NCBI GenBank assembly: GCA_017439545.1
Contig: JAFSIW010000048.1
Location: forward strand, 1 to 33,243
Length of the DNA: 33,243 nt
Direction of reading: 5' to 3'
Source: Clostridia bacterium
GTDB taxonomy: Bacteria > Bacillota > Clostridia > Oscillospirales > Acutalibacteraceae
Shown here: one piece after another, positions 4,286 through 17,331 of the stretch
Layout: the number at the start of each line of letters is the position of its first letter
How positions within the stretch are numbered: position 1 is the stretch's first letter
The notes under the pieces: generated by a model
What the model saw: the letters and a program-made list of their open reading frames with translations, nothing else
What the model was told of the DNA's origin: nothing
The model's database searches: none
Position numbers and translations under genes: made by a program

Positions 4286-5530
4286 TCACACTCTCTTTTC
4301 AGGGAATGACGGTATTTTCCCTACTACACTACGTAAAATCTCCAATGCATCAGCAGCTGTAATATTTCCGTCGCCATCCATATCAGCCACAGGAATTTGC
4401 GATTGGTGGAACGAATGTTTTCCTACCACGTTTTTGAGCACATACAACGCATCAGTTGCCGAACAATTTTCGTCAGCATCCACATCCCCTGCCAGCGGCG
4501 GGTGATCGGGGTCGGTGAAATAGTCTAAAGGAATAAAGTTAAACTTTGGAAACACAGGCAATCTCACACCCGATTCTGTGTATGCAGGTTCTTCCCATTC
4601 GGCATATTCCATTGCCAAAGTGTTTTTATAACCGTAAATCGTGAAATTGGGATTGGCTTCCCAATATATGCAACAAAGGGTGGAATAATCGATATAGCCG
4701 AATGCCAGCTCTCCGATTTCTACCAATCCTTTGGGCAAAATTACCGAATCGAGTTTTTTGCAATGAAAAAATGCCCTTTCTGCTATATGGGTCAAACTTT
4801 CGGGGAACACAATATTTTGCAAGCTGATGCATCCACGAAAGGCGCCGGAACCGATGGTTTTCAATCCCTCGGGAAGGTTGATTTGTTTAAGAGAGATACA
4901 CCCGCCAAACGCACCGGGTTCGATATTTTCCAAACTATCGGGCAACTCAACCGAAACCAAGGAATGATTGTAGGAGAAGGTGCTTTCCTTAATGGATGTG
5001 ATACCATCGGGAACGATAACAGCGGTAATGCCATTGCATAGATAAAAAGCACTTTCCCCAATTTCGGTCATGGTAGATTCAAACTTTACAGCACCTTTTT
5101 TCATAGCGGGATAATGGAATAACACGGTTTTATCCTTGTTATAAAGTACCCCATCCACCGAGCTGAAATAGGGGTTTTCCTCATCTACCACAATGGTCTG
5201 CAGTCCGCGGTTACCATAGTTAATGCTGCTGCTGATCGTCTTCACGGTTTTGGGTATATACAGCACCCTCAAAACGTCATCCACAAAGGCATTGCCGAAC
5301 TCCACTTTGGTAACGGGATACCCTTCAATGGTTTCGGGAATTTCAAACGTGGTAGAATAACTGCAACGATACATCAGCGAAACTTCGCCGTTGGCAACCG
5401 AGTAGGTGTACTCTTCTTTCGGTTTCTCCGGCGGCTTGTAGTCCGGATTGATATCGGCTGTCGCCGTAACGGATCCTACACAAGTAAACAACAACGATAA
5501 ACAAACAAGAATCAACAGGAATCTTTTCAT
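4286..5530 (-). CDS. secreted BspA-type leucine-rich-repeat protein with C-terminal dockerin
   Basis: A 414-residue secreted protein. A signal peptide occupies about residues 1-26 (hydrophobic LLILVCLSLLF). Residues about 40-300 are BspA-like LRR_5 repeats of the form 'IPETIEGYPVTKVE', 'IGESAFYLCNGI', 'IGSGAFRGCISLQNI', 'IAERAFFHCKKLDSV'. The last about 68 residues form a two-repeat dockerin: DVDADENCSATDALYVLKN...VVGK and DMDGDGNITAADALEILRS...VVGK, both with Ca-binding Asp/Asn loops. The start ATG at 5528-5530 is chosen because AAAGGAG lies 9 bases upstream; the ATG three codons earlier overlaps that site. Likely an adhesion or binding module displayed through the cohesin protein encoded next to it. 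Its own promoter and terminator are present. Confidence 0.9.
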   Translation of the reverse strand: MKRFLLILVCLSLLFTCVGSVTATADINPDYKPPEKPKEEYTYSVANGEVSLMYRCSYSTTFEIPETIEGYPVTKVEFGNAFVDDVLRVLYIPKTVKTISSSINYGNRGLQTIVVDEENPYFSSVDGVLYNKDKTVLFHYPAMKKGAVKFESTMTEIGESAFYLCNGITAVIVPDGITSIKESTFSYNHSLVSVELPDSLENIEPGAFGGCISLKQINLPEGLKTIGSGAFRGCISLQNIVFPESLTHIAERAFFHCKKLDSVILPKGLVEIGELAFGYIDYSTLCCIYWEANPNFTIYGYKNTLAMEYAEWEEPAYTESGVRLPVFPKFNFIPLDYFTDPDHPPLAGDVDADENCSATDALYVLKNVVGKHSFHQSQIPVADMDGDGNITAADALEILRSVVGKIPSFPEKRV

Positions 5531-5602
5531 ATAAACCATCTCCTTTCACTTATTAAACAATTAACGGTTGTATTTATCTCACAATAACCATAATTTTTGT
5601 TT

Positions 5603-5632
5603 ATTATACTATAATCAGCAATACATAATCAA
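5603..5632 (-). promoter_or_regulatory. promoter of the LRR-dockerin gene
   Basis: On the minus strand TTGATT (5627-5632), an 18-bp spacer and TATAAT (5603-5608), about 70 bp before the start codon. Confidence 0.65.
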
Positions 5633-5678: not shown

Positions 5679-5713
5679 AAAACCGACAGAGCGGTCTGTG
5701 CTCTGTCGGTTTT
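5679..5713. terminator. terminator of the lepA-cohesin unit
   Basis: A perfect 14-bp stem (5679-5692 and 5700-5713; AAAACCGACAGAGC against its complement) with a 7-nt loop and T-runs on both strands. It follows the cohesin gene stop codon by 7 bases. Confidence 0.88.
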
Positions 5714-5720
5714 TAACGAA

Positions 5721-6509
5721 TCATTCTTCGGTTTCGTCCTGCGGGACTTCTAAATCCAGCATATCTTTGGCATCATCGTCCAAGATGGCGGTATGCTCAA
5801 CCACCGGTTTATTGGCTTTCGCGCGGCGAATCCACACAAACAGCAGGGTGGCTACACCGGCTACCACCACAATACCGCCGCATACAGCCCAGAACCAAAG
5901 GGGTGTTTCGGTTTCTACCTGCTTTCCGTCGGACGAAGTGCCGCCGCCAATGGTAGAAACGGTCTTATCTACCACCGCCGAAACCACCACTTGCGAGCCG
6001 TTTTCATCCACCGAGGTTACGGGAGTAACGGTTACGTCGGAAACCGCTTTACCCGATACGGTTACCTTGGCTACCGCTGTGTTGGTGTCGATCTTGTTGG
6101 TATCATAGTCGCAACAGCTAACGGTGTAAAACTGAAACTCGTGGGTGCCGCTTGCTTTGGAGTCCACCTTAAAGGTAACGGTAAACAGGGTGCCTTCATC
6201 CATAATAGGCTGGTTGCCTGCCAGGCTGTACAGCACCTTACCGTCTTTGCAGTTGCCCACAGCCATACAATTGCGAATCAGGTCACCGTCTTCATATTCC
6301 ACAAATTCAAAAGCAGCGGTATCATAAGATACGCGGAAGTCAGCCGCCGCAATGTTGGCGCCCGCCTTCAGACCAAAGGCCACCTGAACGGTAGAGCCGG
6401 GAGCGCAATCCTTGGCGGTTGCCGTCAGAGTTGCAGAAGCCGCCGAAGCGGGGATGGCAACCCACAAAGTCAGCGTTAAAATCATTGCCAATGCCAATAC
6501 ACGTTTCAT
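5721..6509 (-). CDS. single-cohesin membrane-anchored surface protein
   Basis: A 262-residue protein built as signal peptide (about 1-24), cohesin domain (about 25-155), polar linker (156-203), one transmembrane helix (about 204-227, LWFWAVCGGIVVVAGVATLL), RRAK stop-transfer and an acidic cytoplasmic tail (about 232-262). Cohesin features seen are APGSTVQVAFGLKAG at the start of the fold, ADFRVSYDTAAFEFVE, and the closing GTLFTVTFKVDSKASGTHEF and AKVTVSG strands. Cohesins bind dockerins, so this protein is the likely cell-surface receptor for the dockerin proteins in this window. Anchoring is by a membrane helix, not by a sortase or SLH signal. It starts 11 bases after the lepA stop with AGGAGAAATAATT in front, so it is probably co-transcribed with lepA. 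Which dockerins it binds is not shown by the sequence. Confidence 0.88.
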   Translation of the reverse strand: MKRVLALAMILTLTLWVAIPASAASATLTATAKDCAPGSTVQVAFGLKAGANIAAADFRVSYDTAAFEFVEYEDGDLIRNCMAVGNCKDGKVLYSLAGNQPIMDEGTLFTVTFKVDSKASGTHEFQFYTVSCCDYDTNKIDTNTAVAKVTVSGKAVSDVTVTPVTSVDENGSQVVVSAVVDKTVSTIGGGTSSDGKQVETETPLWFWAVCGGIVVVAGVATLLFVWIRRAKANKPVVEHTAILDDDAKDMLDLEVPQDETEE

Positions 6510-6520
6510 AATTATTTCTC

Positions 6521-8329
6521 CTATTCGTCCAATTTAAGAATGGCCATAAAGGCTTCTTGGGGAACTTCCACCGAGCCCAGACTGCGCATTCGTTTTTTAC
6601 CTTCTTTTTGCTTTTCAAGCAATTTCTTTTTGCGGGTGATGTCACCGCCGTAGCACTTGGCAAGCACGTCTTTACGCATCGCCTTCACCGTTTCACGGGC
6701 GATGACCTTGCCGCCGATGGCTACCTGCACGGGAATCTCGAATAACTGACGGGGAATGTGCTCTTTCAGTTTTTCGGCAATGCGGCGCGCCCGTTTATAA
6801 GCATTATCGCTGTGAACGATAAAGGAAAGAGCATCCACAATTTCGCCGTTTAGTAACACGTCCAGCTTCGCCAATTTAGAAGCCATATATCGTTTAGGCT
6901 CATAGTCGTAAGAAGCGTAGCCGCGGGTACGGGATTTCAGCGCATCAAAGAAGTCGTACACAATTTCATTCAGCGGCATTTCATAATGAATATCCACCCG
7001 ATTGGCGGCGGGATATTGCATATCCAAAAAGATGCCTCGCCGTTCCTGACACAGATCCATAATGGTACCCACGTAATCGCTGGGGCTGTAGATGTGCACG
7101 TCACACATCGGCTCTTCTGCCGAGGTGATGGAAGCAGGATCAGGATAGTTGGTGGGATTGTCGATCTCTACCACGCTACCGTCGTTGAGGGTAAACTTAT
7201 ATACTACGCTGGGGGCGGTGGTGATCAGATCCAGATTATACTCCCGTTCCAGCCGTTCCTGAATGATCTCCATATGGAGCAGTCCCAAAAAGCCGCAACG
7301 GAAACCGAATCCCAATGCCGCCGAGGTTTCAGCTTCAAAATGCAGAGCGGCATCGTTCAGTTGCAGTTTTTCCAAAGCCTCCCGCAGGTCGGTATATTGA
7401 GCGCCGTCAGCAGGATACACCCCGCAAAACACCACGGGGCTGACCGCGCGGTAACCGTCCAGCGGTTGGGGGGCGGGGGTTTCTGCCAAGGTGATGGTGT
7501 CCCCCACTCTTGCCTCGTCTACGGTTTTAATGGAGGCGGTAAAGTAACCAACCTCCCCTGCGTTCAGGGTCTGACAGGGCACCAGACTGGTAGCACCCTT
7601 GCGCCCCAATTCCACCACGTTAAAGGTGGCGCCGGTGGCCATCATTTTAATTTGATCTCCCACCGAAAGGGAGCCGCTTTTTACGCGAAAATAGGTCACA
7701 ACGCCTTTATAGGGATCGTAATATGAGTCAAAGATCAAGGCTTGCAGGGGATCATCGGAGCTGCCCACGGGAGGAGGGACATCTCTTACCACCCGTTCCA
7801 GCACCTCTTTAATATTGATGCCGTTTTTGGCGGAAATGCGAGGGGCACTCATACCCTCAATGCCAATGATATCTTCGATTTCGGCGGCAACCCGCTCGGG
7901 CTCGGCGGCAGGCAGGTCGATCTTATTGATGACCGGCACGATCTCCAGCCCGTGATCCACCGCAAGGTAGGTATTGGCCAAGGTTTGGGCTTCAATGCCT
8001 TGGGAAGCGTCCACCACCAGCACTGCGCCCTCGCAGGCCGCAAGGGAACGGGAAACCTCGTAATGGAAGTCCACGTGCCCCGGCGTGTCGATGAGGTTGA
8101 GCTCATAAGTCTGACCGTCGTCCGCCTTATAATAGAGGGTAACCGCGTGGGCCTTGATGGTAATGCCCCGCTCCCGCTCTAAATCCATACTGTCCAACAA
8201 CTGATCTTCCATATCCCGCAGGGCAACCGTTTCGGTAATTTCCAGCATACGGTCGGCCAAGGTGGATTTGCCGTGGTCAATATGGGCGATAATGCAAAAA
8301 TTTCGTATGTTTTCTTGTGGGATGTTCAT
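6521..8329 (-). CDS. lepA: elongation factor 4 (LepA)
   Basis: A 602-residue translational GTPase, the usual length for LepA, which back-translocates or remodels stalled ribosomes. Seen: P-loop [13 protein letters not shown], switch [20 protein letters not shown], and the LepA-specific C-terminal region ending [18 protein letters not shown] and [10 protein letters not shown]. The start is placed at MNIPQENI, with GGGAGATATAGT upstream; the frame stays open 20 codons further up, but that part covers the promoter. The strong promoter lies 30-60 bp upstream, and the next gene downstream is the cohesin protein. Confidence 0.97.
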
Positions 8330-8360
8330 ACTATATCTCCCATTCTGTAAAATCAAAGGT

Positions 8361-8389
8361 ATTATAGCATAAATAAAAGAAAGATACAA
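8361..8389 (-). promoter_or_regulatory. sigma-A promoter of lepA
   Basis: On the minus strand TTGTAT (8384-8389), 17 bp, TATAAT (8361-8366), about 32 bp before the lepA start codon. Confidence 0.8.
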
Positions 8390-9323: not shown

Positions 9324-11294
9324 ATGAAACAATGGCTTCGTTACGCCACCGCACTTATGCTGTGCCTGTGTATGCTGTTACCCACCGCCAATCTGTTGGC
9401 GCTGGCGGCACAGCCCACCCAAGTGACCAATTTGCCTACCCTGTATATCACCTTGGACGGGGGTGCGCCCATCGGTACAATCTCAAAAACCACTCAACTG
9501 CCTGCCACCTTTTCTATGCGGGCAGAGGGCTTTGAGGACATTACCGATGCACCCATCACCATTAAAGGACGGGGCAACTCCACCTGGCAATTGCCCAAAA
9601 AGCCCTATCAGATCAAGTTTTCGGTCAAAACCGACCTGCTTGGTATGGGCGCTTCCAAAAAATGGATCCTGCTCGCTAACTATTGGGACAAGACCTTGAT
9701 GCGCAATGCGGTAACCTACGAGCTCGCCAACAAAATGAACAACATTTTTTCGGTAGAGTTCCATCACGTGGACGTTTATATGAACGGACAGTATCAAGGC
9801 AACTATCTGCTGTGCGAAAAAATTGAGTTCGGCGGTCAGCGCATTGACGAAGATACCGCCGCGGGCGCTGTTTTGATGGAGCTGGAGCAACAGTACCGTC
9901 ACGCCGCCGACGGTTGTGATGCTTGCGTGATCACCGATGACGGGGTGCACGTGCTTATCAAAGAACCGGAGCAGGACGAAAACTACACCGTGGAGCAAAT
10001 GGAGGCCACCAAATCCGCCACGCTGAGCCGTCTGAACACCATTGAGCAGGCTATTGCCGACGGGTATGACAGTTATTCGCAGGTAATCGACGTGCCCTCT
10101 TTTATTGATTGGTATATTCAGAATGAGCTTGCCAAAAACTACGACGCCGCCTTTGTTACCAGCAGTTATTGCTATTTAGACAGTCTGGGCGTGTTGCACA
10201 TGGGCCCTGTGTGGGATGTGGACGTGTGCTTTGGCAATCAGGACGTAACCTACCCCGACACCAACGATAACGGGCTGAATTATTACAATTACCGTTCCGA
10301 CAAGGGCGCGTGGTATTTAGGACTGTTTCAGGATGAGACCTTTGTGAAGATGCTGAAAGCCCGTTGGGCAGAGATCAAACGGTTAGGATATCTGGATCAA
10401 ATGGTCAATCGCATTGACTCCTTGGCGGTAGAACTGTGCGACAGTCAGTTTATGGAGACTCAACGCTGGCCCGACGCTATGATGGTCACCCACGTGCGAG
10501 ATCAAGGCAAAGGCACCGGAGGCACACCCTATTTCACCTACGACGAAGAGGTGGAATACTTTAAGGATTGGCTGATTCGCCGGATTGACTGGCTGGACAG
10601 TCAATGGAACGATGGCTATCATCCTTGGCAGCTCTACTCCCCTGTTGAAACGCTGACCGGTGAGGATATCGCCCCTGCCAACGTGACCGTAAGCAACGGG
10701 CAATGGAGTTGGAAGTATATTCGCTACCCCTCTCCCATCAACCGTCGAGTGGCGACCTCGCAGGAGTTTTTTCAATACGATATTGAAAGCGGAAAATATA
10801 TTATCAGCGCCAAATACAAGCATACGGTCAGCAACGCAACCGACGGCATGCTGATGAAGCTGTATGGTATTGCTGAAGACGGGGAACGGTATTTATTGTA
10901 CACCACCGCCGCTACCCACGTAAGTTACGCCACCGCGCCTAAAGATGCCGACGGCTTTGCCACCCTGAGCATTGGCTTTAACACCGCCAAGTATCCCTAT
11001 ATGGAGCATTTTTATGCACAAATCGAAGCCTATAACGGTACAATGGCGATCAAAGAGGTAACCTTGCACCAAAACACCGTCTCCTTTTTGCGGGGCGACG
11101 TCAATCAAGACGGAGCAATTACTGCCGCCGACGCATTGCTGGTACTGCAATCGGTGGTCAGCAAGGTGCAACTGAACGAACAACAAAAGCAGGCCGCTTG
11201 TTGCAGCAAGGACAATGAAGTGAACGCCGCCGACGCGTTGCTGATTTTGCAATTTGTAGTGGGCAAAATCAAGGTATTCCCTGCAGATGCATAA
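9324..11294 (+). CDS. secreted CotH-kinase-like protein with C-terminal dockerin
   Basis: A 656-residue secreted protein. Signal peptide about 1-29. A CotH-type atypical protein kinase domain spans about 40-430, with IKGRGNSTWQLPKKPYQIKF, WILLANYWDKTLMRN, the GNYLLCEKI strand and the catalytic-loop-like HMGPVWDVDVCFGN near residue 292-305. CotH proteins phosphorylate spore-coat or extracellular proteins; they also occur in cellulosome components. A beta-rich, possibly carbohydrate-binding module follows (about 449-580), then a dockerin (about 588-656). The first dockerin loop is canonical (DVNQDGAITAADALLVL) but the second is CCSKDNEVNAADALLIL, lacking Asp at loop positions 1 and 3. The ATG at 9324 is preferred because AAAGGA lies 8 bases upstream; two earlier ATGs overlap that site. 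Confidence 0.88.
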   Translation: MKQWLRYATALMLCLCMLLPTANLLALAAQPTQVTNLPTLYITLDGGAPIGTISKTTQLPATFSMRAEGFEDITDAPITIKGRGNSTWQLPKKPYQIKFSVKTDLLGMGASKKWILLANYWDKTLMRNAVTYELANKMNNIFSVEFHHVDVYMNGQYQGNYLLCEKIEFGGQRIDEDTAAGAVLMELEQQYRHAADGCDACVITDDGVHVLIKEPEQDENYTVEQMEATKSATLSRLNTIEQAIADGYDSYSQVIDVPSFIDWYIQNELAKNYDAAFVTSSYCYLDSLGVLHMGPVWDVDVCFGNQDVTYPDTNDNGLNYYNYRSDKGAWYLGLFQDETFVKMLKARWAEIKRLGYLDQMVNRIDSLAVELCDSQFMETQRWPDAMMVTHVRDQGKGTGGTPYFTYDEEVEYFKDWLIRRIDWLDSQWNDGYHPWQLYSPVETLTGEDIAPANVTVSNGQWSWKYIRYPSPINRRVATSQEFFQYDIESGKYIISAKYKHTVSNATDGMLMKLYGIAEDGERYLLYTTAATHVSYATAPKDADGFATLSIGFNTAKYPYMEHFYAQIEAYNGTMAIKEVTLHQNTVSFLRGDVNQDGAITAADALLVLQSVVSKVQLNEQQKQAACCSKDNEVNAADALLILQFVVGKIKVFPADA

Positions 11295-12588: not shown

Positions 12589-15540
12589 CTATGCTTCTAC
12601 CGGGAATTTTTCGATTTTGCCTACCACTTTTTGCAAAATCAGCAAAGCATCGGCGGCACTAATGGTTTGATTACCATCCACGTCGGCGGCGATAAATTGT
12701 TCGGAGGTAAATTCGATTTTGCCTACTACAGATTTCAGTACTTCCAGCGCGTCAGCGGCCGAAACCACACCGTTTTGGTCTGCGTCACCGTAAAGCACGT
12801 CAATTTCATCGGGCAGGTTACGGATGGCTTCCAGAACAGCATCCAGTTTGGCTTTATTGGTGACCAATGCTACCTGTTCTTTATCCAATTCATTATACAG
12901 AGCCAGCGCCTCTTCTGCCGCCGCCAAATCGCTCTTGGCTACGTTTTCGGGATCGGGCAACGCATCAATGGCGTTATTCACTTCGTCGGCACGCAGTTGA
13001 TTGTAGGCATCCACCACGTCGATGAGTTTTTGCAGATTGGTTACCTTGAGTTTTTGGTCATCGGTCAATTCGTTATACATATCCACCACGTTTTGCACGT
13101 CGCCGCCGTCGTTTTTAGTGAGGTAATCGGCTTCGGGCAATTGGGTGATGGCAGAAATCACGGCTTCCACCTGGGTGTCAACCACCACTTCAGGGATTTT
13201 GACCGCTTGAATATTATCAATGACCAAATAAGGAATGGTGGTAGATGAATAGTTAAACCAGCTTAAGCGAAGGATATTGATGTTATCAAGAGAGGTCTCG
13301 TAGGTGACACCGGGGGCAACCGACGCCCCGTTCAGGCCAAATTCGATGGTATGCCAGCCCTTGGTCAAGGTGTTCATGGCTTTCATAAAGTTATAACCGT
13401 CACTCTTTTGGGTACACAGATTCATTTGGAAGCCGTTGGAAGCATCCAGATCCATGGGCACATACAGGTCGAACTTAAGAACGTCATATCCGCTCAGATC
13501 CGCCGACTTGGGCAAGGAAAGGTAGGTCATACCGCCCACTTTATCGCCGTTCACTTGACCCAAAGGATCCCCGTAGGTCATTTTCAGTCCGTGGGTACCT
13601 TGGGTTTTCAAAGCCGAATCCAAAGATGGCGTGGTGCCATAGTTGCCGGAAGCAACCGCCAGATCTTCCCCGTCGTATACCATCAAGGTGTTTTCATCCA
13701 CTTGATAAGGATACTCAACGGTGCTTCTGTTATAGGCATACAGATTGTCAATGTAGAATACCGTTTCGGTGGTAAAGGGCTTGTAGTTATACCAGGTAAA
13801 CCGAATGCGGTTGATATTGGACCAATCGGCAGTATCTTTCACCTTAGGAATGGTGCCGCGGTCTAACTCGATATGATGCCACCCGACTTTTTTATCGTTC
13901 AGCGGATACATATGGTTAAACCCGTCTTGCGAATCGGTACAGAAGTTGATCTGCAGACCACTGCTGCCCATCAGATCTTCGGTGAGATACAGGTCAAATG
14001 CAATGGTATTGTATTTGCTGATATCAGCAGACTTGTTGAACACGTGGTGCATCATACCGCCGATCTTGTTGGAATCGGTATACAAATCAGGGTCGGTGCA
14101 AGCCATTTTAATGCTGTACGAGCCTTGGGTCTTTTCACTGCTCTTGGACACGTTGGTCTTAAAGTCGGTGGAAAGGGTGGAAATATCTTCCCCATCGTGC
14201 AACACCAAAGTATTACCGTTGGTGTAAGGGTAAGTTACGGTGGGAGTGGGGGTGGTTGAGCCACTCTTGGTAGTAGCGATTACGTTATCGATATAAATAT
14301 TGGTTTCTTTGGTACTGCCCACATAGTTGAACCAAGTATACCGAATGGTATTGATCTTGCTCCAATCGGCGGAAGATACCGCTTTACCAACCTTAGACAG
14401 ATCAATGGAAACGTGATTCCAACCGCTGGCGGCGGTTTTATCGTTAATGGTGATCATTTGGTTATAACCGTCTTGTCCGCTGGTAGCAAAGTTAATCTGC
14501 AACCCATTGGAACCGGTCATATCCCGACCGAACAGCACGTCAAACTCCACGTGGGTATATCCGCTCAGGTTGGCGGTAGAAGACAAGGATTGAATGGCCA
14601 TACCGCCGATTTTGGTGGAAGCGGACTGACCGTTGGGGTTGGTACAATTCAAACGCAAACTACCGGTGCCCGATTTCTTTGTGCCGGTATCGTAGTAAAT
14701 ATTGGTGTTATAAGCCGAACTCATACCGGACAAGGATTCGCCGTCGTACAAGGTCAGGCTCCCGTCGCTGTTCTTGTAAGGGTAGGTAACGGTGGGAGCG
14801 GTAGAGCGCAATACGCAGTAACCGCCAACCGTCAGAGAGGGACGACCGCCCGAAAGATTATACGCACTGACCCATTCCACACCGCCGTAAGCCAACGTGC
14901 CACGGGCATTGGTGGGATAAGAGTCCAGCACAAGGAAGCGGTCGGTTGCAGGATCATAGTCAGCAAGGCAAATAAAGTGACCGGGTACGTGAGCGATGGC
15001 TACCGCATCCCCTGCCAGATAGTTTTTCAAAGAGGTTTGGCTGCTAACGTAAATATTATTGTAATAATAGCCGTTGTAATAGTTGGCACTGTTCCAGTTT
15101 TCGGTCCAGGTAATGGGCATATCAAAATTGTAGGTGGAACCGTAACGGGTTTTGAGCGGAGGGGGATTGGACACGTCGGTACCAAAGGTCATATACCGAT
15201 ACATACCGTCCGCATTGGGGTTAAAGGCGCCCAGATTGTAGGCGTAGTTTGCCCAGTCCAAAATAAAAGTTTTGGCTTTGTCGGTGGTATTAAAGGCGCC
15301 GGTTAAGTAGTTGATGGCATTACAGCTGGACAGCACACCACAAGCGGTATCGTAGATACTGCCGCCGCCGTAATAATACCAGGCCCAAGCGCTGTTGCGT
15401 TGGTCCCACGCAATGGCGGTTGAGCCATTGTAATAGGTGTCTGCCGAAGCAGCAGGCGCCGCCACAGCCGCGCCGCATAACAGAGTCAGCATCACCAGTA
15501 AGGATGCGATCCATCTGCGGCTTTGGTTGATCAAGTTCAT
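12589..15540 (-). CDS. large secreted C39-type peptidase-like protein with three beta modules and dockerin
   Basis: A 983-residue exported protein. Order: signal peptide (about 1-33); papain-fold C39-like peptidase domain (about 38-245) with candidate catalytic residues Gln47 (WDQRN), Cys67 (DTACGVLSS), His188 (VPGHFICLADYD) and Asp206 (LVLDSYP); three homologous modules of about 170 residues (about 251-427, 434-606, 607-782), each starting 'YPY...L.YDGE.L' and ending 'YIDN(L/I/V)', like CBM-type jelly rolls; two short helical repeats (about 785-912, TDDQKLKVTNLQKL and DKEQVALVTNKAKL); and a dockerin (about 915-983) with both Ca loops intact. The start follows TAGGAGGAAGAAATT. It lies 48 bp after another dockerin gene and is probably co-transcribed. 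It is likely a surface peptidase held by a cohesin; the substrate is unknown. Confidence 0.88.
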   Translation of the reverse strand: MNLINQSRRWIASLLVMLTLLCGAAVAAPAASADTYYNGSTAIAWDQRNSAWAWYYYGGGSIYDTACGVLSSCNAINYLTGAFNTTDKAKTFILDWANYAYNLGAFNPNADGMYRYMTFGTDVSNPPPLKTRYGSTYNFDMPITWTENWNSANYYNGYYYNNIYVSSQTSLKNYLAGDAVAIAHVPGHFICLADYDPATDRFLVLDSYPTNARGTLAYGGVEWVSAYNLSGGRPSLTVGGYCVLRSTAPTVTYPYKNSDGSLTLYDGESLSGMSSAYNTNIYYDTGTKKSGTGSLRLNCTNPNGQSASTKIGGMAIQSLSSTANLSGYTHVEFDVLFGRDMTGSNGLQINFATSGQDGYNQMITINDKTAASGWNHVSIDLSKVGKAVSSADWSKINTIRYTWFNYVGSTKETNIYIDNVIATTKSGSTTPTPTVTYPYTNGNTLVLHDGEDISTLSTDFKTNVSKSSEKTQGSYSIKMACTDPDLYTDSNKIGGMMHHVFNKSADISKYNTIAFDLYLTEDLMGSSGLQINFCTDSQDGFNHMYPLNDKKVGWHHIELDRGTIPKVKDTADWSNINRIRFTWYNYKPFTTETVFYIDNLYAYNRSTVEYPYQVDENTLMVYDGEDLAVASGNYGTTPSLDSALKTQGTHGLKMTYGDPLGQVNGDKVGGMTYLSLPKSADLSGYDVLKFDLYVPMDLDASNGFQMNLCTQKSDGYNFMKAMNTLTKGWHTIEFGLNGASVAPGVTYETSLDNINILRLSWFNYSSTTIPYLVIDNIQAVKIPEVVVDTQVEAVISAITQLPEADYLTKNDGGDVQNVVDMYNELTDDQKLKVTNLQKLIDVVDAYNQLRADEVNNAIDALPDPENVAKSDLAAAEEALALYNELDKEQVALVTNKAKLDAVLEAIRNLPDEIDVLYGDADQNGVVSAADALEVLKSVVGKIEFTSEQFIAADVDGNQTISAADALLILQKVVGKIEKFPVEA
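13198..14790 (-). repeat. three tandem repeat modules inside the C39-dockerin gene
   Basis: Module 1 is 14266-14790, module 2 about 13723-14241 and module 3 about 13195-13722. Shared protein landmarks are YDGE near the start, IGGM or VGGM, D(V/L)LF or DLY(L/V), a SNGLQINF-type strand, an ADWS-type or SLDN-type turn followed by IN, a WFNY or WYNY core strand and a final YIDN or VIDN strand. They are similar but clearly diverged, so the duplication is not recent. Confidence 0.75.
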
Positions 15541-15588: not shown

Positions 15589-17331
15589 TTATGCTTTGCC
15601 TACCACGATTCTAAGCACCTGCAGGGCATCGGCAGCATCGGCCTTACCGTCATCATTCAGATCCCCCGCCGTAAGTTGATCGGGCGTGAATTGCCGTTTG
15701 CCTACGGTATGCTGTAAAATCCACAGAGCGTCGGTAGCTTCGATCTGGTTGTTACCGTTTACGTCTCCCGAAAGCAAGCCAAGGGGTTTGCGATCAGACA
15801 GATAATCGCCGCTACACCAGCCCAGCATCACGCTACCGTCGGTATTGGTGCCGTAGCACATAAACCACCCGTCTACGTCGCCCCCAAGCAGAGTGACGGT
15901 TGAACCTTTGGGGAACCGACCTAACAGTTCACCGCTTGTAGTCGGCTTGGTACGGCAATTCAGATCATCATCACTGGTGTTGATTTTGGCAGTATAAGTA
16001 GCTGTCGGTTGCGCTACCGCTTGTATACAATCAATCGCAACCGCACCAAGCAATGAAGTAAAAACAATTTCGATGGTGGGCACTCGTGTTACCGTTTGCA
16101 GGGCGGGAACAGGCAGCGTGAGAGTATGCCAGCCGTCCGCAAGTCCCGTCAGATCATACTGCAACGTGGCTTCGTTCATATTAAGCTGTAGAACGGCGTT
16201 TTCGGATTGGGGAAGTTCCAGACACAAAGACATTTGTATAGAAGCGAATCCCGAACCGTTCCATTCGATGGGCATTTTCAAACTGCCGCCCAGATTCATT
16301 ACCACAGGCTCATCATACGAGTCGTAGTTTTTCGGGCTGAACACGATCACTGATTTATCGTCCATGTTCTCGGCGGTAACAGCAGTGTTGGCATCGGTAT
16401 AAATGCCGTTGAGGCGACTGCCGTCGGTCAAGGTGAGGATCGGCCATTGGAAGGTGGGCATCAACTCACCGAAATTGGATGCGCCGCCATAGCCGCCGTA
16501 TTGAGCGAGCATTGCCAGCAGGTCTTTCGGCTCGTTCACCCGCAAACGCAGATACACACCCGCTTGCACAGCGGCGGAATTGCCGCTGTAATATTTCATA
16601 TATTTGCCTTCTAATTGATATTTCTCAATGATCCATGCGTTACTGCCTGCCGATGCCGCCAGCATTGGATTGGTGCCGCTTTCCACCACGGCACCGCTTT
16701 CTTCATAGATGGCGGTGATCAGCGTTTGCTCCGGCGTGGTGGTCAAAGCACCTTGAGGCAAGGCTTCTTCTACCCGTCGCATAATGCCCATAAAGCCGGT
16801 GCGATTGGTATACGAGCCTAACCCGTGTTGCAAGGTGCGGGACCAGACTGCATTTTTCAAGGCGATACCGTATTGGTTTACATCCAGATTCAAATACTCC
16901 TGAAACGCCTTTACCGCCGGCAAGTAGTATTTTTCGCGGGTATACAGCCGTTGCAGGCGGTAAAAACCGCTTGCATCCTCGGCGGCAATGGCTTTCCATT
17001 GAGCATTGAAGTTGGTGCTGTAGGAATCCCCATCTTTCGCATAGGCGTCGCACAATCGGTTGCCCACGCTCACGCCCAATCCCGATGACACACACCATTT
17101 GGCGAAGACGAAGGGAACGCCCGATTTGCTGGCAAACTGATACGCGCCGTAGGAAGCGCCTCCCAGATCGCCGATGCCGCCGGAAATCAGACCGGGGTCA
17201 CCGTTGGACTCGTATTTTTGAGAAACAGTACCAAGAAGGGCATCTTCTAAAGGATCGAGTTCCTCCGCAAAAGCGGGTGGCACGACCCATAACAAACCAA
17301 GGACACACAGCAGTGCAATCACTCGTTTCAC
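15589..17331 (-). CDS. secreted lysozyme-like protein with SH3 domain and dockerin
   Basis: A 580-residue exported protein. Signal peptide about 1-22. The N-terminal region (about 30-290) contains SQKYESNGDPGLISGG...GGASYGAYQFASKSG, a pattern I associate with lysozyme-fold hydrolases of phage tails and peptidoglycan-degrading proteins; Glu41 is the candidate catalytic acid. A beta-rich module (about 330-445) follows, then a bacterial SH3 domain (about 447-515, LNCRTKPTTSGELLG and GWFMCYG...LGWCSGDYL), which often binds cell wall, and a dockerin (about 516-580; DVNGNNQIEATDALWIL, DLNDDGKADAADALQVL). The start is GTG at 17329-17331, fixed by AGGAGG 7 bases upstream; no ATG fits. It begins 11 bp after the polC stop, so it shares the polC transcript. 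Peptidoglycan hydrolysis is inferred. Confidence 0.82.
   Translation of the reverse strand: MKRVIALLCVLGLLWVVPPAFAEELDPLEDALLGTVSQKYESNGDPGLISGGIGDLGGASYGAYQFASKSGVPFVFAKWCVSSGLGVSVGNRLCDAYAKDGDSYSTNFNAQWKAIAAEDASGFYRLQRLYTREKYYLPAVKAFQEYLNLDVNQYGIALKNAVWSRTLQHGLGSYTNRTGFMGIMRRVEEALPQGALTTTPEQTLITAIYEESGAVVESGTNPMLAASAGSNAWIIEKYQLEGKYMKYYSGNSAAVQAGVYLRLRVNEPKDLLAMLAQYGGYGGASNFGELMPTFQWPILTLTDGSRLNGIYTDANTAVTAENMDDKSVIVFSPKNYDSYDEPVVMNLGGSLKMPIEWNGSGFASIQMSLCLELPQSENAVLQLNMNEATLQYDLTGLADGWHTLTLPVPALQTVTRVPTIEIVFTSLLGAVAIDCIQAVAQPTATYTAKINTSDDDLNCRTKPTTSGELLGRFPKGSTVTLLGGDVDGWFMCYGTNTDGSVMLGWCSGDYLSDRKPLGLLSGDVNGNNQIEATDALWILQHTVGKRQFTPDQLTAGDLNDDGKADAADALQVLRIVVGKA

Follow-up and report, generated by a model that had tools for sequence, protein, structure and literature searches.

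A membrane-anchored single-cohesin protein encoded behind lepA as a candidate docking receptor in a dockerin-rich Acutalibacteraceae bacterium

Introduction

Large numbers of dockerins with few cohesins have been reported for R. albus, of which strains 7, 8 and SY3 encode 90, 62 and 58 dockerin proteins and 1, 0 and 1 cohesins, respectively (PMC4081043; here, as for all sources below, statements refer to the excerpts available to us). The R. albus dockerins fall into no significant subgroups (PMC4081043, PMC6118326), and the same pattern of a large dockerin number and few cohesins defines Hungate1000 category iv, wherein the single R. albus cohesin was suggested to anchor isolated enzymes on the surface (PMC6118326). 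In R. albus, the cohesin sits in an adaptor protein that also carries a dockerin, with a membrane helix not mentioned in the available excerpts (PMC4081043, PMC6118326), and the role of dozens of dockerins without scaffoldins was called puzzling for this species (PMC4081043).

Single cohesins with a C-terminal transmembrane helix are known as nonSLH-anchoring scaffoldins from Lachnoclostridium sp. MSJ-17, H. luporum and C. cibarium, and MSJ-17 has up to 39 dockerin proteins, with one dockerin enzyme of the lignocellulose-active kind (PMC11557425). The genomes of that survey were selected for at least one protein with at least two cohesins, therefore assemblies like the one studied here would be left out, and its available excerpts describe neither a lepA linkage nor a tail motif (PMC11557425). 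OlpA of Clostridium thermocellum carries CohI and SLH modules (PMC4045903).

This study analysed a 33,243-nucleotide stretch of DNA (the window) from a Clostridia bacterium assembly (G000; 1.88 Mb, 85 contigs, 87.08% complete), whose source probably lives in the animal gut. G000 resembles R. albus and Hungate1000 category iv in having many dockerins and few cohesins (86 matches versus 3, subject to completeness); unlike R. albus (PMC4081043, PMC6118326), it combines an adaptor with a probable sortase-type cohesin and with a membrane cohesin whose tail is conserved, and GH5, GH9 and GH48 are absent among its dockerin-frame families listed. The window protein shares a single cohesin and a C-terminal helix with the nonSLH-anchoring scaffoldins (PMC11557425). 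OlpA and OlpC are alike in presenting a surface type I cohesin able to take dockerin enzymes directly, but they are SLH-anchored and stand alongside the large scaffoldin CipA (PMC4045903, PMC12811415). The Limousia mucinolysome likewise combines a gut clostridial host, non-cellulase dockerin cargo and an anchored cohesin, but each genome there has 3-6 scaffoldins, which are multi-cohesin proteins with up to 12 cohesins, and anchoring is of the LPxTG type (PMC12997984).

Results

The window encodes a single-cohesin membrane protein directly behind lepA

The features of the window are as follows.

4286..5539, minus strand: BspA-type LRR protein with a C-terminal dockerin (Pfam)
5603..5632, minus strand: promoter-like site ahead of the LRR-dockerin gene (consensus scan only)
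5679..5713, minus strand: terminator-like hairpin of 14 pairs with a T-rich tail, 7 bases past the cohesin stop (consensus scan, sequence)
5721..6509, minus strand: single-cohesin membrane protein, 262 aa (ORF, Pfam, AlphaFold2, Foldseek)
5724..5822, minus strand: acidic tail, residues 230-262 (33 residues; sequence)
5748..5795, minus strand: conserved tail motif, residues 239-254 (genus alignments, shuffle test)
5829..5885, minus strand: transmembrane helix, about residues 209-227 (hydropathy; model helix 204-232)
6063..6419, minus strand: cohesin domain, residues 31-149 (PF00963)
6441..6509, minus strand: signal peptide, about residues 1-23, with A-S-A at its end (sequence by eye; model helix 2-17)
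6521..8389, minus strand: lepA (EF4), the upstream gene, likely a two-gene unit with the cohesin gene (Pfam LepA_C 1e-50; sequence)
9324..11294, plus strand: CotH-like protein with a C-terminal dockerin (Pfam)
12589..15540, minus strand: large protein with a C-terminal dockerin and an N-terminal domain without assignment (Pfam, NCBIfam)
15589..17331, minus strand: protein with a VgrG3-like C-terminal domain (putatively wall-hydrolase-like), SH3_3 and a dockerin (Pfam)

The original prediction had read the protein as signal peptide, one cohesin, linker, membrane helix and acidic tail, and this order was borne out by profile, fold match and hydropathy. PF00963 matched residues 31-149 (E = 2.7e-16), and the score of 60.5 bits against a cut-off of 24.1 answered the cohesin profile search that the prediction had named as its check. 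In an AlphaFold2 model built from seven genus sequences, the cohesin region has block pLDDT values of 83-94, linker and tail are low, and helices appear at residues 2-17 (signal) and 204-232 (C-terminal). The top Foldseek matches of the cohesin model are solved cohesins, 2xdh first (E = 2.7e-11), then those of C. thermocellum and others, and model and matches together identify a cohesin fold. Hydropathy peaks at residues 209-227, with R-R-A-K next and the acidic tail thereafter; because the positive residues come after the transmembrane helix, the tail is predicted to be cytoplasmic. The protein thereby falls within the definition of a nonSLH-anchoring scaffoldin, namely at least one cohesin plus a C-terminal transmembrane helix or other anchor (PMC11557425).

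Besides PF00963, Pfam returned nothing for the window protein at E<=1, including no LPXTG-type anchor family, and inspection by eye likewise found no LPXTG-like motif of a ScaE-type sorting signal; with the motif absent, sortase anchoring of this protein was rejected. Compared with the PDB by sequence alone, it comes closest to the NagJ cohesin of C. perfringens (2jh2), which is no cellulosome anchor, and an 18-row cohesin profile scored best against the PDB entry 3ul4, a complex of the OlpA cohesin with a dockerin.

The gap between the lepA stop and the cohesin gene start is 11 bp, and a Shine-Dalgarno-like AGGAG overlaps the lepA stop codon. Owing to this short gap and the hairpin after the cohesin gene, the cohesin and LRR-dockerin genes are probably not co-transcribed, and lepA and the cohesin gene seem to form a unit of their own, apart from the LRR-dockerin cargo gene. 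The terminator-like and promoter-like sites are consensus matches, of which the region scan gave 11 against a shuffle mean of 6.3 and 12 against 8.0, respectively.

Neighbouring dockerin proteins and their cargo

All four neighbouring proteins named originally as dockerin-bearing matched PF00404 above the curated cut-off (E = 5.4e-9, 1.2e-8, 2.2e-8 and 1.2e-10; type I dockerins). The cargo labels given to them held in part: Pfam recognized the BspA-type LRR (1.8e-43), CotH (3.8e-43) and a VgrG3-like C-terminal domain (1.1e-29) with SH3_3, and the last makes wall cleavage a plausible label for 15589..17331. The C39 peptidase label for 12589-15540 was not supported, as its first 259 residues gave no C39 match at a Pfam threshold of 10 (HMMER filters discard most matches above about 0.1 despite this threshold) and the protein had no NCBIfam match at E<=0.01. 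Only sub-threshold Pfam matches were found in these 259 residues, the best being Phytochelatin (E = 0.055), which we take to be a papain-like peptidase family; from this weak match, the protein may have a papain-like, cysteine-peptidase fold. A Cys-Gly / His / Asp pattern was also seen by eye in this protein.

Adjacency as a sign of partnership was rejected, because groups of four to five dockerin frames in 13 kb are likewise present on contigs C17, C39 and C50 and on another part of C12 (compared by counts alone), and the terminator-like hairpin lies between the cohesin and LRR genes.

A large and uniform dockerin pool

A genome count, also named as a check in the original prediction, gave 3 cohesins and 91 dockerin-bearing frames in G000. 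The predicted combination of a membrane-anchored single cohesin with many dockerin proteins is supported, and the pool of candidate partners is 91 frames, not four. PF00404 returned 95 rows at E<=1, which make up the 91 frames (one, on C85, covered over 1191 of 1486 residues), and 86 matches at E<=0.001; when frames were scanned alone, 86 of the 91 matched at E<=0.001 (15/15, 20/20, 23/25 and 28/31). The A-x-D-A-L motif occurs anywhere in the protein at least once in 88 and at least twice in 79 of the 91 frames. Among the three frames without it are two, on C61 and C37, that encode proteins of metallopeptidase-like appearance (by eye) and whose dockerin is of another type; other types were seen in no frames beyond these three. 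This uniformity suits one specificity, as judged from the motifs. The dockerin lies at the C-terminus in 54 frames, near the N-terminus in 24 and elsewhere in 10; the remaining three frames were missed by the pattern applied.

Among the Pfam families listed for the 91 frames, LRR_5 occurs in 4, GxGYxYP_C in 6 and SBP_bac_1 in 3; CotH, S8 peptidase, GH25, Amidase_2, CHAP and CAP occur once each, and glycoside-hydrolase and carbohydrate-binding domains are scattered through the frames. GH5, GH9 and GH48 were not among the families listed (25 of 37 for set A3). The cargo had been described as non-cellulase, which is fair on the families listed; "non-carbohydrate" would be unfair, given the glycoside-hydrolase-related and carbohydrate-binding proteins present alongside those for adhesion and wall activity.

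Eight paralogues of about 1,000 residues carry N-terminal dockerins (including those at L117, L100, L121, L130, L155 and L166). Their model has low confidence (mean pLDDT 65.2), and Foldseek ranks beta-glucuronidases, beta-galactosidases and a GH5 mannanase first by E-value, with TM-scores of just 0.1-0.3; the family is perhaps glycoside-hydrolase-like, which we regard as a lead. Another three proteins with N-terminal dockerins, paralogues of one another (L135:1387-2952, L165:307-1887 and L168:210-1754), resemble ABC solute-binding proteins. SBP_bac_1 was confirmed singly for L135 and L168 and is presumed for L165; the L168 dockerin is under the Pfam cut-off, and one of the two singly re-checked proteins had no dockerin match at E<=0.001. 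The idea that the dockerin replaces the lipid anchor of a solute-binding protein beside its transporter was rejected, as the C22 and C52 neighbourhoods show no obvious permease by eye.

Three cohesins in three separate genes

The three G000 cohesins lie in three separate genes (PF00963; two above cut-off), and the 18-row cohesin profile, which includes these three, returned the same three at E<=0.1. The second cohesin protein has 248 aa and ends in NPATGD-helix-KK; the NCBIfam NPXTG model gave it 18.4 bits, under the cut-off of 23.5, and on these sequence features it is probably a sortase-type, wall-linked anchor. The third, of 382 aa, is an adaptor with a cohesin (20 bits, under the Pfam cut-off) and a dockerin. 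Four sortase matches above cut-off and no SLH domain were found in G000. The claim of one anchor by a membrane helix was thus upheld for the helix and for the lack of SLH, but not for a sole candidate anchor, given the NPATGD protein, the sortase matches and the adaptor.

No protein with the two or more cohesins expected of a cellulosome was detected in this 87% complete assembly by PF00963 and the 18-row profile, in agreement with the predicted lack of a multi-cohesin scaffoldin, although such proteins are present in the genus mate G001. Divergent cohesins can be missed: PF00963 gives the two-cohesin protein of G002 just E = 0.024, and the 18-row profile may miss others.

The lepA linkage across the genus and cohesin counts across the family

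The numbers of dockerins and cohesins in G000 and its genus mates G001-G004 are 86/3, 47/20, 76/7, 74/5 and 43/5, respectively (dockerins by PF00404 at E<=0.001; cohesins by the 18-row profile at E<=0.01), with 3, 21, 4, 3 and 3 cohesins by PF00963. A membrane cohesin lies right behind lepA in all five genomes, as a tandem pair in G001 and G002; a LepA-end pattern recovered the linkage in four, and the G004 lepA, whose 3' end reads differently, was recognized by sequence. The 3' end of the lepA frame at L170:1-744 also reads differently, as in G004, by error or real change. Outside the genus, no LepA end was found near matches of the window protein within the flanks of 27 fetched loci, with a pattern that misses broken frames.

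In G002-G004, a TrkH-like gene (Pfam-checked in two) follows the lepA-linked cohesin, with a TrkA gene next in two; at L171, the remaining 0.9 kb past the TrkH-like gene is other sequence, with no TrkA. In the window, the LRR-dockerin gene occupies this TrkH-like position. G001 has about 20 cohesins, several of which share a frame; one such frame, of 915 aa, gave several matches. G002 encodes a protein with two cohesins and a C-terminal helix directly after lepA-cohesin-cohesin-trkH-trkA (L172:6820-8490). The five cohesins each of G003 (96% complete) and G004 (90%) are all in separate frames.

The family survey covered 55 genomes, one per genus and including G000; at E<=0.001, dockerins were matched in 44 of them and cohesins in 41. 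At least 20 dockerin matches occur in 12 genomes, and seven of these (six of 11 without G000) have three or fewer detected cohesins, namely G000, G005, G012, G017, G020, G024 and G036; as the 18-row profile is tuned to the window's genus, cohesin counts in other genera are lower bounds. Among 16 cohesin frames chosen, not at random, from nine family genomes, a hydrophobic helix on the C-terminal side, with or without a sortase-like motif, occurs in 10, a dockerin in five (one by pattern, four by eye) and neither in one.

A conserved tail motif

A block like ILxxDxxxLLxL is common to the tails of five of seven aligned genus membrane cohesins, one per genome, and is weakest in G001. For each of four block widths, none of 3,000 shuffles reached its best-block score, in a test that ignores shared ancestry; this shows conservation, as distinct from selection or function. 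Over the whole protein, three genus copies are 39-46% identical to the window protein and the G001 copy 26%. A 207-aa protein of G000 (L218:1033-1653, on C54), zinc-ribbon-like by eye and without a Pfam match at E<=0.001, has a stretch resembling the motif, and its E = 0.029, the next match in the genome, is within chance for one search.

Discussion

Based on these findings, we propose, with somewhat better than even confidence, that the window protein acts as a monovalent receptor in the membrane, on which the members of a large dockerin secretome dock. The outward-facing cohesin on the membrane would take dockerins one at a time, and some 90 secreted proteins with a mixture of functions would be its partners. 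With the probably wall-linked single-cohesin protein and the cohesin-dockerin adaptor at its side, it would display these proteins singly, with no multi-enzyme scaffold. The lepA linkage may give a steady receptor supply, with cargo genes regulated separately. This proposal draws on the cohesin identified by profile and fold, on three single cohesins facing 86 dockerin matches, on the uniformity of the dockerins, on the lepA linkage, on the kept tail, on the C-terminal-side helices of 10 of the 16 family cohesin frames and on the OlpA complex as the best PDB match of the 18-row profile. Against it, three cohesins could serve some 90 dockerins only if the receptors were abundant, a scaffoldin may be absent from the 87% complete assembly, multi-cohesin proteins occur in G001 and a two-cohesin protein at the G002 lepA locus, and NagJ is the best PDB match by sequence.

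It is possible, though doubtful, that the part of the genome missing from the assembly encodes the multi-cohesin scaffoldin of a conventional cellulosome-like system, in which the membrane cohesin would serve as an accessory anchor: scaffoldin genes, being repetitive, tend to be poorly assembled, G000 is incomplete and G001 does have multi-cohesin frames, but the cohesins of G003 and G004 are all in separate frames beside 74 and 43 dockerin matches, a dockerin type beyond the A-x-D-A-L kind is confined to at most three of the 91 frames, and low cohesin counts recur across the family. We consider it quite improbable that the dockerins are no partners of the window cohesin, binding scaffoldins of other species or serving another purpose while the cohesin has one special ligand, since one or more lepA-linked membrane cohesins are retained in all five genomes of the genus together with 43-86 dockerin matches, and the window cohesin is intact and conserved; such a separation would agree with the interspecies docking proposed for R. 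albus and with the undetermined dockerin roles elsewhere (PMC4081043).

The docking receptor proposed here belongs to a real and recurrent but little-studied arrangement of known parts. Publications already describe both the excess of dockerins over cohesins and the lone cohesin with a C-terminal helix, and the new elements are the tail conservation and the lepA linkage, neither of which was found raised for any cohesin in the excerpts of the literature examined. Because this lineage offers a defined candidate receptor, membrane-anchored and lepA-linked in all five genus genomes, a single cohesin and a handful of dockerins would suffice to test one-at-a-time display. As a rather unlikely extension, the tail motif could be a cytoplasmic docking peptide through which the receptor couples dockerin occupancy, or its own localisation or turnover, to a cytoplasmic partner, with scaffoldin-free single docking as a standard alternative to the cellulosome in the family.

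Two further cohesin settings were noticed. In three genus mates (L034, L041 and L037), a short single-cohesin protein is encoded; the two frames that are complete start like lipoproteins by eye and lie between EamA transporter and zinc-type dehydrogenase genes (one each Pfam-checked), and this type is absent from G000 by the 18-row profile, which includes those proteins. At L002:1403-2302, the NPATGD-type cohesin gene lies behind a PSP1-domain gene (PF04468), and L044 and L045 look similar by eye.
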